From the NCBI RefSeq assembly GCF_020991005.1, contig NZ_JAJLLW010000007.1:175223-239222 (forward strand): a stretch of DNA of 64,000 nt, in the 5' to 3' direction. The position numbers and the translations under genes were made by a program. Below, one piece after another: positions 51,632 to 56,824 of the stretch. Positions within the stretch are counted from its first letter, which is position 1, and every line of letters begins with the position of its first letter. This DNA is from Halomonas sp. CUBES01. Its GTDB lineage: Bacteria; Pseudomonadota; Gammaproteobacteria; Pseudomonadales; Halomonadaceae. The notes beneath the pieces are model-generated. The model made no database searches and was not told the DNA's origin. It saw nothing but the letters and a program-made list of their open reading frames with translations.

Positions 51632-52744
51632 ATGTTGAAAGTCGGTTTCGTGGGATGGCGCGGCATGGTCGGCTCGGTGCTGATGCAGCGCATGCAGGAA
51701 GATGGTGATTTCAACGGCATTGAGCCGGTGTTCTTCACCACTTCCCAGGTTGGCCAGCCCGGCCCCGACATCGGTGTGGACGTCCCTCCGCTGAAAGACG
51801 CCTTTGATATCGAGGCGCTCAAGGCGCTGGATGTGGTGGTCACCTGTCAGGGCGGCGACTACACCAAGCCGGTCTACAAGGACCTGCGCAGTGCAGGCTG
51901 GCAAGGCTACTGGATCGATGCGGCCAGCACGCTGCGCATGGAAGATGAAGCGACGATCGTGCTGGACCCGGTCAACCGTGGCGTGATCGACGCACAGCTG
52001 GCCAAGGGCGCCAAGACCTTCGTCGGCGGCAACTGCACCGTGAGCCTGATGCTGATGGGGCTGGGCGGTCTGTTTGAAGCCGATATGATCGAGTGGATGA
52101 CGTCCATGACCTATCAGGCGGCGTCCGGCTCAGGTGCCAAGCACATGCGCGAGCTGCTCAACCAGATGGGCACGCTGCACGATAGCGTTGGCGAAGAACT
52201 GAAAGACACCTCCAGCGCTATTCTGGATATCGATCGCAAAGTGACGGCGGCCATGCGTAGCGGCAACTTCCCCACCGAGAACTTCGGTGCGCCCTTGGCC
52301 GGTAGTCTGTTGCCGTGGATCGACAGCAAGCTGGATAACGGCCAAAGCCGCGAAGAGTGGAAGGGCAGCGTTGAGACCAACAAGATTCTGGGTCTCGACA
52401 ACAACCCGATTCCCATCGATGGCCTTTGCGTACGTATCGGTGCCATGCGCTCGCACAGCCAGGCGTTCACCATCAAGCTGAAGCAGGACGTGCCGCTGGA
52501 CGAGATCGAAGACCGCATTGCCAAGCACAACGAGTGGGTCAAGCTGATTCCCAACGAGAAAGATGCCACCAACGAAGGCTTAACGCCTGCGGCGGCGACA
52601 GGCACGCTGCAAGTGCCGGTTGGCCGTCTGCGCAAGCTGCAAATGGGCGGTGAGTATCTCTCGGCGTTCAGCGTTGGTGACCAGCTGTTGTGGGGCGCGG
52701 CTGAACCGCTCAAGCGCATGTTGATGATCCTGCGCGAGCAGTAA
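51632..52744 (+). CDS. asd: Aspartate-semialdehyde dehydrogenase
   Basis: Asd reduces aspartyl phosphate to aspartate semialdehyde, the branch point to lysine, threonine, methionine and diaminopimelate. The N-terminal [18 protein letters not shown] is typical of the gammaproteobacterial form, and the catalytic cysteine is C135 in [10 protein letters not shown]. Length of 370 is usual. A consensus AGGAGG ribosome site precedes ATG. In Pseudomonas fimV follows asd; here an insert intervenes. Confidence 0.98.
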
Positions 52745-52765: not shown

Positions 52766-52813
52766 GCATCCTAAGCGGATGAAAAAGCCGCATCCCAAGC
52801 GGACGAAAACGGG
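52766..52813. repeat. Two imperfect 24-base tandem copies
   Basis: GCATCCTAAGCGGATGAAAA and GCATCCCAAGCGGACGAAAA start 24 bases apart directly after asd. The second copy runs into the terminator stem. Confidence 0.5.
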
Positions 52814-52840
52814 GGGCGAATCAAACGCTTCCCGTTTTTT
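52806..52840 (+). terminator. Intrinsic terminator after asd
   Basis: AAAACGGG and CCCGTTTT bracket an inner GGCG/CGCT stem and an AATCAAA loop, followed by TT. It lies about 60 bases after asd and isolates the next module from it. Confidence 0.75.
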
Positions 52841-52992
52841 ATGTGCGGCTGCTTTAAGATGCCGGTGAAATGGGAGCTGAACAGATCCCAGTCTTGTGTG
52901 AGGTAGCGAGTGTTGTCTGGCCTTGGCCTTACTGATGCCAGCGTGCGCCTGGTAAGTTACAGTACGACCAATGAATCTTTGGAAAAGTGACC

Positions 52993-54159
52993 ATGAAACA
53001 ATTGTACGTTGAACAGCTCGCTCAGGTTAGGAAGGCTGAAGTCGAATTTGGCGACCTCACCTTGCTCGTTGGCCCCCAGGCCAGCGGTAAGAGTGTGTTT
53101 CTTCAGTTGTTTAAACTGGTACAGGATCATGGTTCGATCACCAAGACTCTCAAGCGGTATGGCTACAGTTACGAGCCCGGCGCTGCGGATAGTTCCAGTG
53201 ATCCGTTGCTGACATTGATGTTCGGGGAAGGTATGGGGGCTATTTGGCGTCAGGAATCGTTGGTCAAACCGGATGGTAAATCGATTGATCTTACCGGGCT
53301 GCGCAAGGGTAACGGCAAAGATCAGGAGTCGGTGTTTTTCGTGCCGGCTCAGCGAGTGCTGACGCTGGATCAGGGCCGTCCGCGCAGTTATGAGAGCTTT
53401 GCCGCGCTCGATCCTTTTGTGGTGAAAAGCTTTAGCGAGAATTTGCGCAGGCTCATGGAGAAAGGGCTGGGTGGTCAAGACAACCAGTTGTTTCCGATCA
53501 AAAGCCGCCTGAAAGAAGTACTCCGTGACCGCATCGACGACAGTATTTTTCATGGCGCAACCGTTACCCAGGAAGTGCACGATCTGAAAAAGCGGATTGT
53601 GATCAATGCAGGCGGTGCCACCTTGCCCTATATGGCTTGGTCGGCTGGTCAGCGTGAATTTATGCCGCTTCTATTCAGCCTTTACTGGCTGATGCCCTCG
53701 GCGGGTTCGGCCAGGCGCAAGGGCGTAGACTGGGTGGTGATTGAAGAGCCCGAGATGGGTCTTCACCCGCAAGCAATTCAGTCCGTGTTGCTCATTTGCC
53801 TGGAATTGATGTACCGAGGCTATAAGGTGGTGATTTCTACACATTCGCCGCTGCTGCTGGAAGCTGCTTGGGCCATTCGCACGCTGCAGGGCAACAAGGG
53901 CACGCCGGAAGCCTTGTTCGAGCTTTTTGACCTGCCTAACTCGCCCGGAATGCGTGACGTCTTCAGCGTGGTTTTGTCTGATAAAGCAGTCAACAGTTTC
54001 TATTTTGAACCGGGTGACCAGGGCGTATCCACCAAGGATATCTCATCGCTTGATCCGTTCTCTGCCAATGATTCTATTGCGGATTGGGGGGGCATTACCC
54101 AGTTCAGCAGCCGCGCTTCCGATGTCATCAGCCGTTTGATGCAGGAGGCTGGTGAATGA
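52993..54159 (+). CDS. AAA ATPase of the ABC/OLD-like type, candidate defence protein
   Basis: A 388-residue ATPase with ABC-type motifs: Walker A GPQASGKS at 27-34, a degenerate signature S217-A-G-Q-R-E, Walker B VVIEEPEMGLHP with E251-E252, and the switch histidine H284 in ISTHSPLLLE. This set is shared by OLD, PARIS AriA, Septu PtuA and RloC-like defence ATPases and by some DNA-repair proteins. No nuclease or Toprim domain is fused to it. ATG at 52993 is preferred to GTG at 52987. Its stop overlaps the next gene by four bases, so the two products probably act together. It interrupts the usual asd-fimV order. Confidence 0.85.
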   Translation: MKQLYVEQLAQVRKAEVEFGDLTLLVGPQASGKSVFLQLFKLVQDHGSITKTLKRYGYSYEPGAADSSSDPLLTLMFGEGMGAIWRQESLVKPDGKSIDLTGLRKGNGKDQESVFFVPAQRVLTLDQGRPRSYESFAALDPFVVKSFSENLRRLMEKGLGGQDNQLFPIKSRLKEVLRDRIDDSIFHGATVTQEVHDLKKRIVINAGGATLPYMAWSAGQREFMPLLFSLYWLMPSAGSARRKGVDWVVIEEPEMGLHPQAIQSVLLICLELMYRGYKVVISTHSPLLLEAAWAIRTLQGNKGTPEALFELFDLPNSPGMRDVFSVVLSDKAVNSFYFEPGDQGVSTKDISSLDPFSANDSIADWGGITQFSSRASDVISRLMQEAGE

Positions 54160-54599
54160 CATTGGGAAAGAGTTTTCTGAAGGCAATAGAAAAGGATCTC
54201 GGAAAGGGCGTTTATAGAAAAGGATTGCAGGCACTTAAGGCTGCCGACCGATCGCTTATAAACCTAGGTAACCCACGTCACTGCCTTGGCAGTGCCGATA
54301 TTGACGCCAGTCTCGCCGTGCAGCAGCCTCAGGCTTCGCGTTGGGACTACGTGATTGCCCATGAGCAGACACTGCATTTCGTAGAAGTACATCCCGCTTA
54401 TACATCGGAAGTCAGCCAGGTAATCAAGAAAAAAGAATGGTTGTTGGCGTGGATGAAAAATGCCGAGGTGGGCAATTTGGATGCCCCGCGTCGTTTTCAC
54501 TGGCTAGCCAGTGGCAAAGTTGCCATTACCCGCAACAGTAAACAAGCGCGTGCGGCAGCCCAGATGGGGCTGATGCCAGTTCGGCAGCTTGATTTATAA
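54156..54599 (+). CDS. Small partner protein of the ATPase, unknown family
   Basis: A 147-residue cytoplasmic protein, basic, with no membrane segment. After a helical N-terminus comes WDYVIAHEQTLHFVEVHPA: D64, then E77-V-H79 at the end of the next strand, followed by helix-forming KKKEWLLAWM. A strand-turn-strand with Asp and Glu-x-His/Lys in this order is faintly like the PD-(D/E)xK nuclease core, but the final residue is His, not Lys, so this is only a hypothesis. The start overlaps the ATPase stop (ATGA), indicating coupled translation. Confidence 0.75.
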   Translation: MTLGKSFLKAIEKDLGKGVYRKGLQALKAADRSLINLGNPRHCLGSADIDASLAVQQPQASRWDYVIAHEQTLHFVEVHPAYTSEVSQVIKKKEWLLAWMKNAEVGNLDAPRRFHWLASGKVAITRNSKQARAAAQMGLMPVRQLDL

Positions 54600-54630
54600 G
54601 CCAATAAATATCGATTCAGGAAGTACAGTT

Positions 54631-54794
54631 ATGTTACCCACCACTTTGGCATTGGAAGTCAAAAAACAGGCTCTTCACTATTATTTGGGGCAATTTTCCC
54701 AATTTACCTTCCTGAGGCAGAGCAAGCTCTTGAAGCTTTTTTTACTTACTTGGATGAAGGGCTGTTTAAAGGGTCTCGGGTAAATTTGTGGTAA
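54631..54794 (+). pseudogene. Frameshifted N-terminal remnant of a large helicase
   Basis: ATG at 54631 opens with LPTTLALEVKKQALHYY. After about 20 codons the sense passes to another frame reading FPIYLPEAEQALEAFF and DEGLFKGSRVNLW before a stop at 54792-54794. Joined, the two parts resemble the start of large DUF1998-type DEAD/DEAH helicases (DruE-like, with their FKGP-type motif), as judged from memory. Roughly one base is missing near the GGGG run at about 54687. All helicase motifs are absent, so the gene is dead. Confidence 0.5.
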
Positions 54795-54865: not shown

Positions 54866-56824
54866 ATGAAACAGCTAGGCGCGCTGGCCGTAGGGCTTTG
54901 GCTAAGCATGGTGGGGTCAATTGGCTGGGCGCTTGAGTTGGGGCCTGCCCAGGTGCAGTCCCGGCTAGAGGCCCCGTTGCAGGCCATGGTTCCGCTTGTG
55001 GATGGCGACGCGTATTCACCGTCAGCGATTGAGGTCAGCGTCGCCGGTGAGGATGCCTTTGCCGACGCGGGGGTTGAATGGACACCGATGGCGGGGCGCG
55101 TCCAGGCCGTTATTCAAGAGCGCCAGGGGCAGCCCGTGGTGGTGTTGACCAGCAACCAGCCGATTACCTCGCCTTGGCTGGACCTGCTGCTGACCGTGGA
55201 TTCCCCCGGTGGTCGGCAGTCCCAGGCCATCACGCTGTTGTTTGATCCTGCTGACTACGGTGCTGCCGATCGACCGGCAGCGTCAGTAGCGCCTCAACCT
55301 GCCGCCGAGAATCCTGCCGCCGGGAATGATGCCCCTGCCGTGCCGCAAAACCGTAAGGCCGCCCAGGGCGACGCGTACGTGCGCAGCGGCGATACGCTAT
55401 GGAGCGTTGCGGCGCGTACCAAGCCCGAACAGGCCAGCGTCCAGCAGATGATGCTGGCACTGCTTGAAGCCAACCCCAGCGCCTTTCCCTCGGGTAATAT
55501 CCACGAAATGCGCGCCGCCCAGCGGTTGACGTTGCCCGATGAGTCGCGGGTGATGGCGCGTTCGGCAGAGCAGGCGGCCGAGACCATCCGGGCAATGAAC
55601 GCAGCTTGGCAGCGCCGCGATGAAAATGGCCCGGCGCCAGTGGCGTTACCCGAGATAGAGGCGGTCGCCGACGACGCGACGTCCGATGCGCCCAGCCCGC
55701 AGGTGGAGCAAAGCGCGCCGGGTGTCGATGCCGCCGCGCTTAGTGCGGCGCAGGCGCTTGGCCGTGCGCCGCGTGCGACCCCTGACGCCGCAGCGTCCAC
55801 CTTGGAAACGGCGACTGCTGCACCTGTTGACGCGTCCTCTCCAGCGCCTGCTATGGGAGCTGCGCTCAGTCTGCAGCGTCAGCAGGAGCTCGATGAGATG
55901 CGCGGTGAGCTGGCTGCCCTGCGCGAAGAGGTGACGCGGCTCAGCGATGCGCTGGCCGCTCAGTCCGTTCCATCCAGAGCGCCGGTAGAGAATCAAGGTC
56001 GTTCTCTCATCGAGCGCCTCAGTGACTATCAGTGGTGGCTGCTGGTCATCGCGCTGGTGCTGCTGCTGGGATTGTTGCTCGTGATGCGCCGCCGCCGTCA
56101 GCAGTGGGAAGCACCGCCCGCAATGGCAGCAGCGGGTGGCGATAACGCCTACGCGTCCTCGCCGTCGGCGGCTGGCCCGAGTCGCGTGACGCCGTCGATG
56201 CCACCGGAACCGCCTTCTCAGGTGCCTCACTCTCAGCCACCGCCTGCCATGGCCGAAGCGGTGGAGGAGCCGGTGACCAGCGAGACGTTCCAAGAGCCGC
56301 CATCCCGCGATGAGAACTTGTCTTCAACGGCTTATGAGGCACCGTTGGATCGTGCCGCGATGGCTCATACCCAGGCGGCCGGGCTGATCGAGATCGGTCA
56401 GGAGCGGCGACTGGCGTTGCAGGCCTACACCGCCGAGCATGACCCGTCGCTGTGGCTGGCACCTCCGGCCAAACCCCAGGCGGTGGCAGCGATGCTCTCG
56501 GCAATGGGCGCCCGTGGTCAGGAGGATGCAACGGTACAGGGCCCTGAGCAACCGAGCCCCGCTAAGGCAGCCCCTGGCCCAGAAGAAGAACAAGCCTGGA
56601 TGATCGACTATCAGCCGCCGATGCTGGCCTCGGGCAGCACAGCGCGAGAGGAAACTCCCATGCAGCCCACGGTGGAATTCGATGCCCAGGCGCCGGCGTC
56701 ACCGGCTCCGCCGCCGGTGGCCGACCCCGAAGAGGAATGGGAGATCGAAGAGGTGGCATTTGCTCCCGCGCCTCGCGATAATGGCGCGCCTTCCACCCCT
56801 GGCAATGTTGATAAGAAGCGATGA
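54866..56824 (+). CDS. fimV: FimV-like LysM/membrane protein
   Basis: FimV-type proteins are inner-membrane scaffolds for polar organelles and type IV pili. The 652-residue product has a signal peptide (SIGWALELGP), the FimV N-terminal domain (about 22-140), a LysM domain (YVRSGDTLWSVAARTKPEQA, about 177-230), a coiled coil (QRQQELDEMRGELAALREEV), one membrane helix at about 392-410 (WWLLVIALVLLLGLLLVM) and a long acidic Ala/Pro-rich cytoplasmic tail. The C-terminal conserved TPR-like FimV domain is not evident. It overlaps truA by four bases, as in Pseudomonas. Confidence 0.88.
   Translation: MKQLGALAVGLWLSMVGSIGWALELGPAQVQSRLEAPLQAMVPLVDGDAYSPSAIEVSVAGEDAFADAGVEWTPMAGRVQAVIQERQGQPVVVLTSNQPITSPWLDLLLTVDSPGGRQSQAITLLFDPADYGAADRPAASVAPQPAAENPAAGNDAPAVPQNRKAAQGDAYVRSGDTLWSVAARTKPEQASVQQMMLALLEANPSAFPSGNIHEMRAAQRLTLPDESRVMARSAEQAAETIRAMNAAWQRRDENGPAPVALPEIEAVADDATSDAPSPQVEQSAPGVDAAALSAAQALGRAPRATPDAAASTLETATAAPVDASSPAPAMGAALSLQRQQELDEMRGELAALREEVTRLSDALAAQSVPSRAPVENQGRSLIERLSDYQWWLLVIALVLLLGLLLVMRRRRQQWEAPPAMAAAGGDNAYASSPSAAGPSRVTPSMPPEPPSQVPHSQPPPAMAEAVEEPVTSETFQEPPSRDENLSSTAYEAPLDRAAMAHTQAAGLIEIGQERRLALQAYTAEHDPSLWLAPPAKPQAVAAMLSAMGARGQEDATVQGPEQPSPAKAAPGPEEEQAWMIDYQPPMLASGSTAREETPMQPTVEFDAQAPASPAPPPVADPEEEWEIEEVAFAPAPRDNGAPSTPGNVDKKR

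Follow-up and report, generated by a model that had tools for sequence, protein, structure and literature searches.

A PtuA/OLD-like ATPase and a PD-(D/E)xK-like partner protein inserted between asd and fimV of Halomonas sp. CUBES01: a candidate anti-phage module of the PDC-M56 type

What has brought two intact genes between asd and fimV, which elsewhere in the genus follow one another directly, and what might these genes do? The question arises in Halomonas sp. CUBES01, in a stretch of 64,000 nucleotides (assembly GCF_020991005.1, contig NZ_JAJLLW010000007.1, positions 175,223-239,222 of the forward strand) that is referred to here, at its full length, as the window. An earlier sequence-only reading of this DNA had proposed an inserted defence module formed by an ATPase and an effector. 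This proposal is supported by synteny, by the sporadic spread of the pair and its strict pairing over 17 phyla, by the match of both proteins to the candidate family PDC-M56 and by the defence genes that neighbour the pair in part of the loci. The model favoured here, to which a probability of about 0.6 is given, is that PDC-M56 constitutes a compact anti-phage module, in which the ATPase (M56A) would act as sensor or switch and the small protein (M56B) as a metal-dependent PD-(D/E)xK-like nuclease effector.

M56A, the proposed sensor/switch (52993..54159, + strand), is a PtuA/OLD-like ATP-binding cassette (ABC) ATPase of 388 amino acids, whose gene overlaps that of M56B by ATGA. The open reading frames, this overlap and the motifs GPQASGKS, SAGQRE, EEPEMGLHP and THS were all found where the sequence-only reading had placed them, and Walker A, signature, Walker B and H-loop are all present. 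The protein matches the PADLOC profile PDC-M56A over residues 1-385 of 388 (positions 1-380 of 382 in the profile, E 5.5e-163), and it also matches Pfam AAA_21 (6.3e-20) and the PADLOC AriA profile (2.5e-20). In the model of the 388 residues, the listed fold matches that reach residue 388 are all of PtuA type, with end-to-end coverage, and a C-terminal Toprim domain of the OLD nuclease/Gabija GajA type is absent from M56A in Pfam at E up to 1. Residues G27, G32, K33, G219, Q220, E222, E251, E252 and H284 are invariant in 80 M56A sequences. This set (A3) holds 80 of the 90 with a usable start; nine loci from Poribacteria are left out, as are L055 and L077, the latter being overlong, and the window sequence takes the place of its own duplicate, L110.

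M56B, the proposed effector (147 amino acids, 54156..54599, + strand), carries the expected WDY...FVEVH motif and matches PADLOC PDC-M56B over residues 5-146 of 147 (E 4.1e-48). It had been described as a protein of no recognised family, which holds for Pfam, NCBIfam and PHROGs, where no family lies above the cut-off (ANT, at E 0.061, is below it) and no housekeeping profile matches; it does not hold for PADLOC, where this model exists and, apart from it, a CARF7 match stands at E 0.033. A profile search of the Protein Data Bank returned C-reactive proteins only, at 0.25. The AriB, Toprim, PtuB and HNH profiles of Pfam and PADLOC give no match at E up to 1, and the fold matches listed for M56B include neither HNH nor Toprim proteins, which is no proof of their absence.

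The structural model of M56B (mean predicted local distance difference test score, pLDDT, 95.1) has strands at residues 43-48, 65-69 and 72-82, a helix at 83-102 and a further strand at 112-123, and this succession of three strands, helix and strand is that of a PD-(D/E)xK core. The assignment of M56B as PD-(D/E)xK-like is supported by this predicted model together with the type of protein found at the top of its fold matches. Among 142 relatives, which are the best listed of 1365 passing plus the initial database matches and exclude more distant copies, in which the site might differ, the acidic pair is kept as Asp64 in 141 (with one gap) and Glu77 in 142, and Lys92, on the following helix, is found in 142/142. 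The distance between Glu77 and Lys92 is 15 or 16 residues in 55/56 database proteins and in most of the 107 locus proteins. Conservation of W63-Y65 and E77-A81 among loci found by DNA pattern would be circular and was not used. An Asp-Glu-His site with a helix-borne Lys is not otherwise known except from viral cap-snatching endonucleases, which have a PD-(D/E)xK fold. Two relatives, P0010 and P0018, one of them from Marinobacter, have a deviating C-terminus (129 and 132 amino acids), possibly a frameshifted or recombined end.

Two points weigh against a nuclease of this class: the position of the ExK lysine is occupied by His79 in 142/142 relatives, and the fold matches to PD-(D/E)xK-type proteins are weak, none being secure alone. 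The earlier guess of a divergent PD-(D/E)xK-like nuclease stands as far as the model and the leading kinds of protein are concerned, and lacks a secure match and the canonical lysine. The same two points favour the idea of M56B as a dead member of the PD-(D/E)xK kind, which would bind the trigger or nucleic acid and leave the effector role to the ATPase or to some other protein of the host. Dead active sites usually drift, and the near-complete conservation of the four residues, along with the constant spacing of Lys92 and Glu77, argues against this idea, which is regarded as rather unlikely.

The two genes are found together wherever this can be judged. A DNA pattern for WDY...EVHPA retrieved 108 stretches from the genome collection, 106 of which encode an M56B homologue of at least 60 bits (L030 and L039 do not). 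In 102 of these 106 loci the M56B gene is preceded on its own strand by an ATPase gene, which either overlaps it or ends no more than 191 nt before it, and the other four have only 0, 1, 2 and 129 bp of upstream sequence, so that pairing is 102/102 among the loci that contain upstream sequence. Stop-to-stop frames of up to 449 codons around some M56B copies were considered as fusions and rejected, as they overrun the ATPase gene, which is read in a frame of its own. In L084, L097 and L106 M56B is split over two frames, and in L057 and L106 the ATPase frame is in fragments only; these are probable decayed copies or sequence errors.

The tree of the 80 M56A sequences spans 17 phyla and requires 26 label changes, the minimum possible being 16, with phyla taken from record titles, many of them of metagenome-assembled genomes (MAGs), and 3/80 rows without a phylum. 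The nearest to the window protein are two Marinobacter sequences, followed by an Ectothiorhodospiraceae MAG and two Halomonas. The distance matrices of M56A and M56B correlate (r 0.42, 0/1000 permutations as high), which partly reflects shared descent only. The ratio of nonsynonymous to synonymous substitution rates (dN/dS) against the two Marinobacter is 0.030 and 0.035 for M56A and 0.055 and 0.053 for M56B, indicating purifying selection, with dS above 1 and each value averaged over both lineages; against Halomonas LBP4 it is 0.078 for M56A, and the remaining comparisons are saturated. M56B occurs in one of 58 relatives' genomes, which is the own genome, being absent from the 57 other near relatives, and in 4/398 genomes of the phylum, own included, the scoring there being limited to 9 candidates in each genome. 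The refuting case named beforehand, a core and vertically inherited locus, is thus not what is seen among relatives here, and Poribacteria, considered below, depart from this.

A compact, overlapping and sporadic pair could also be a toxin-antitoxin-like addiction pair on mobile DNA, with phage defence as a side effect or absent, and the Pfam text for AAA_21, 'putative AbiEii toxin, Type IV TA system', reads in that direction, as does the occurrence of both genes on a mobilizable plasmid. This plasmid is the only one among 72,556 plasmid records, M56B has no match among 50,697 phages, and defence-cluster genes neighbour the pair in several genomes; an addiction pair is therefore considered improbable. 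On viral contigs, 8 stretches fit a search pattern and none encodes a relative. The plasmid in question (L154, Opitutaceae TAV5, CP007054.1) holds its M56B homologue at about 91098-91547, where no gene is listed, directly downstream of the ATPase OPIT5_00420.

The pair of the window is an insertion between asd (51632..52744, + strand) and fimV (54866..56824, + strand), because the spacers of relatives are short and similarity to them breaks at 52847 and 54786/54787. The asd gene is present in 41/41 genus genomes searched, from which 30 loci were fetched; the window and one locus on an early-ending contig aside, fimV follows asd directly in 28/28 assessable loci, as the earlier reading had stated for Pseudomonas-like genomes, at about 158-300 bp against 2,121 bp in the window. 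In some of these loci the fimV start was extrapolated from an alignment beginning up to 22 residues inside. By blastn against four relatives (L111-L114), similarity stops at 52847 in 4/4 and resumes at 54786 (54787 in L111). The inserted segment (52848..54785, about 1.94 kb, no strand assigned) replaces some 42-56 bp of the ancestral spacer and starts directly downstream of the asd intrinsic terminator (52800..52846, + strand), a hairpin plus T-run that is common to the relatives' spacers up to 52847. This terminator, already taken as the left boundary, folds at -20.4 kcal/mol (z -4.0, 0/200 shuffles equally stable), and a simple terminator scan does not list it. A promoter scan gave one sigma-70-like site, on the minus strand and no more than chance, and none for the pair.

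Both flanks of the pair inside the insert are shredded. On the left, and additional to what the earlier reading had noticed, are 3'-end remains of a GmrSD-type (type IV restriction) gene (52858..52992, + strand; 25/25-bp identity, blastx, alignment): MPVKWELN, then about 260 bp missing with respect to the relative's gene, and after this what is left of the C-terminal tail and of the gap that precedes the ATPase. Positions 52858-52882 match Marinobacter sp. SS5-14b exactly (25/25 bp), and the insert from 52924 to 54781 aligns with the same strain at 81% DNA identity. The 'helicase debris' reported on the right is the broken start of a YprA/DruE-like helicase (54631..54774, + strand), a stub of the first ~47 codons that blastx recovers in two frames (45.8%, 2.8e-6, and 66.7%, 2.7e-8). 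The own genome has no other match to the 2213-aa helicase at E up to 0.001.

The relatives indicate where these remains may come from. In Marinobacter SS5-14b the pair stands between a GmrSD gene (GmrSD_N and GmrSD_C) and the 2213-aa YprA/DruE-like helicase, with a type-IIG/PglX-like methylase, whose frame is cut at the border of two fetched regions, and two DrmD/BrxHII-like helicases upstream, and with a UvrD-type helicase downstream. In Halomonas sp. LBP4 DrmD-like, IIG-like, GmrSD and DruE-like genes lie within the fetched region and the pair is placed between methylase and GmrSD. The gene order of ARMADA type II is BrxHII-like, PglX-like, YprA-like and RelE-GajB; the first three genes are present in the Marinobacter loci L140 and L141, followed by the UvrD-type helicase, and Pfam does not detect the RelE part of the GajB-like gene in the Marinobacter relative at E up to 0.001, while the window keeps the YprA stub only. 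A GmrSD-type gene is found in both ARMADA-II-like loci (L140 15365-17287, L142 6253-8148), adjoining the pair on differing sides, and GmrSD and M56 look like interchangeable cargo of such loci. The window insert resembles a fragment left stranded from a defence locus: as its shreds suggest, the pair would have ridden in an ARMADA-type-II-like locus, flanked there by the PglX-like methylase and the YprA helicase, and a part of such a locus may have landed behind the asd terminator, the pair alone staying whole. What is seen resembles the dismantling of a defence island, with the cargo pair intact and its neighbours on both sides shredded.

It could be argued that the pair is inert and silent debris in this genome, irrespective of what the family does in others, given the shredded state of its two neighbours and the lack of a promoter in the scan. 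Both frames nevertheless run over their full length and keep every conserved residue, in contrast to the broken frames that flank them in the insert, and protein identity to Marinobacter SS5-14b is 93% for the ATPase and 78% for M56B at the 81% DNA identity, which leaves a slim chance for this explanation.

Recurrence of the pair in other genomes was confirmed, in defence loci for part of them only, others standing beside metabolic or transport genes. The flank scan covered 108 of the 145 nearest flank proteins of at least 120 aa. They come from 68 of 89 loci, taken in locus order once 13 other loci of Poribacteria and L055 had been set aside, and the matches listed comprise 25 of the 158 PADLOC families and 25 of the 121 from Pfam. 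The PADLOC families that these proteins match at E up to 1e-20 include DrmMI (4), type IIG (3), PglZ (2), PglX (2), GajB (2), HNH (2), Cas8e (1) and DruE (1), which amounts to at least 12 proteins with defence families when only families unlikely to be one protein are counted. As a rough control, one of the 51 window open reading frames outside the pair matches one family (PADLOC DpdF, 2.3e-22). At least 12 further proteins of the flanks belong to metabolism or transport, so that the pair stands also away from defence genes, as it does in the window, and can be seen as a minimal two-gene unit that occurs outside defence islands too. Beside apparent metabolic genes are likewise the pairs of Halomonas sp. 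SpR1 (L144 9281-10899) and Marinobacter MAG-100 (L143 8606-10215). Ten Poribacteria loci (L009, L019, L022, L028, L051, L053, L054, L058, L064, L100) have a common downstream neighbour (10) and often a common upstream one (8); in this phylum the pair may be a resident locus, which counts against the view that it lives by mobility alone. In the other phyla no neighbour cluster exceeds 4 loci, one such being a DrmMI/IIG-type methylase. This, the absence from the 57 near relatives and the PtuA-type fold matches of M56A make it very improbable that the pair serves DNA repair in the manner of Rad50, or has some other resident role and is scattered by chance.

For the preferred reading, a defence module with a nuclease effector, a likely mechanism can be drawn by analogy with PARIS and PtuAB, from which the roles of M56A as sensor and M56B as effector are taken. 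M56A would keep M56B inactive, presumably in a complex, and would respond to a trigger from the phage, probably one of its proteins. In M56B, Asp64, Glu77 and His79, with Lys92 from the next helix, would stand in for the usual D...ExK residues. After its release or activation, M56B might cut either host tRNA, in an abortive response such as those of PARIS and Septu, or DNA. The bare candidate label PDC-M56 gains in this way a concrete proposed mechanism and four candidate active-site residues, and if M56B cuts tRNA, a further nuclease fold would be added to Toprim and HNH under a similar ATPase. A more specific and doubtful proposal is that M56 guards the restriction-type defences of ARMADA, DISARM- and BREX-like loci: the ATPase would sense phage inhibitors of these and free M56B, which would cut RNA, for example tRNA, through a D-E-H plus helix-Lys active site of unrecorded type. 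If so, an effector class with His in place of the catalytic Lys would escape nuclease profiles.

The kind of system is known, and M56 is already a listed candidate of it. Both models of the PADLOC-DB candidate PDC-M56 are matched nearly full length and in identical gene order, and the window pair is, by these models, a member of it; the label is named in no paper of the open library and has no description in the PADLOC library. According to the available text of PMC12988326, PDCs are putative candidates obtained by guilt-by-embedding, validation pending for most of those treated. The earlier statement that no two-gene system of this kind had been described is accordingly valid for the mechanism of the partner only, as PDC-M56 is listed and the ATPase/PD-(D/E)XK class is reported in the accessible part of PMC12839542. 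There, OLD-ABC ATPases of BREX and related loci are described with a nuclease partner of the HNH, PD-(D/E)XK or PIN type, in a group of 594 taxa, and the modules are read as a backup effector layer; the architecture is of the M56 kind, a likeness by description only, as this part of the source names no family or motif.

Among the systems with known effectors, Septu PtuA-PtuB, together with the PtuAB effectors of retrons Ec78 and Ec83, comes close, since M56A aligns end to end with PtuA and a small partner gene follows. The PtuB of Retron-Eco7 is an HNH nuclease that acts on tRNA, as stated in the available sections of PMC12409363, whereas M56B has no HNH profile match and a PD-(D/E)xK-like model. 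In PARIS, following the same sections, AriB is sequestered by AriA up to the moment when a protein of the phage acts as trigger, and it then cuts tRNAs; a sensor ABC ATPase with a separate nuclease effector is also what is proposed for M56, but AriB is a Toprim tRNase and M56B matches neither AriB nor Toprim profiles. The CRISPR ancillary nucleases Card1, Can2 and Cdn1 are, judged by titles, larger and bound to cyclic oligoadenylate, whereas M56B, with 147 aa, contains no sensor domain itself and has an ATPase as its partner. The pairs of Marinobacter and Halomonas LBP4 lie among a BrxHII/DrmD-like helicase, a PglX/IIG-like methylase and a YprA/DruE-like helicase, and both loci fit ARMADA type II as described in the available text of PMC12458937, with the RelE domain undetected. 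ARMADA is not defined by M56 or GmrSD, and the main text of that source, as far as available, does not mention ABC, PDC, GmrSD or DUF262. Against this background, the present analysis contributes the predicted fold of M56B, its unusual invariant site, the ARMADA context of the pair and its stranded state.
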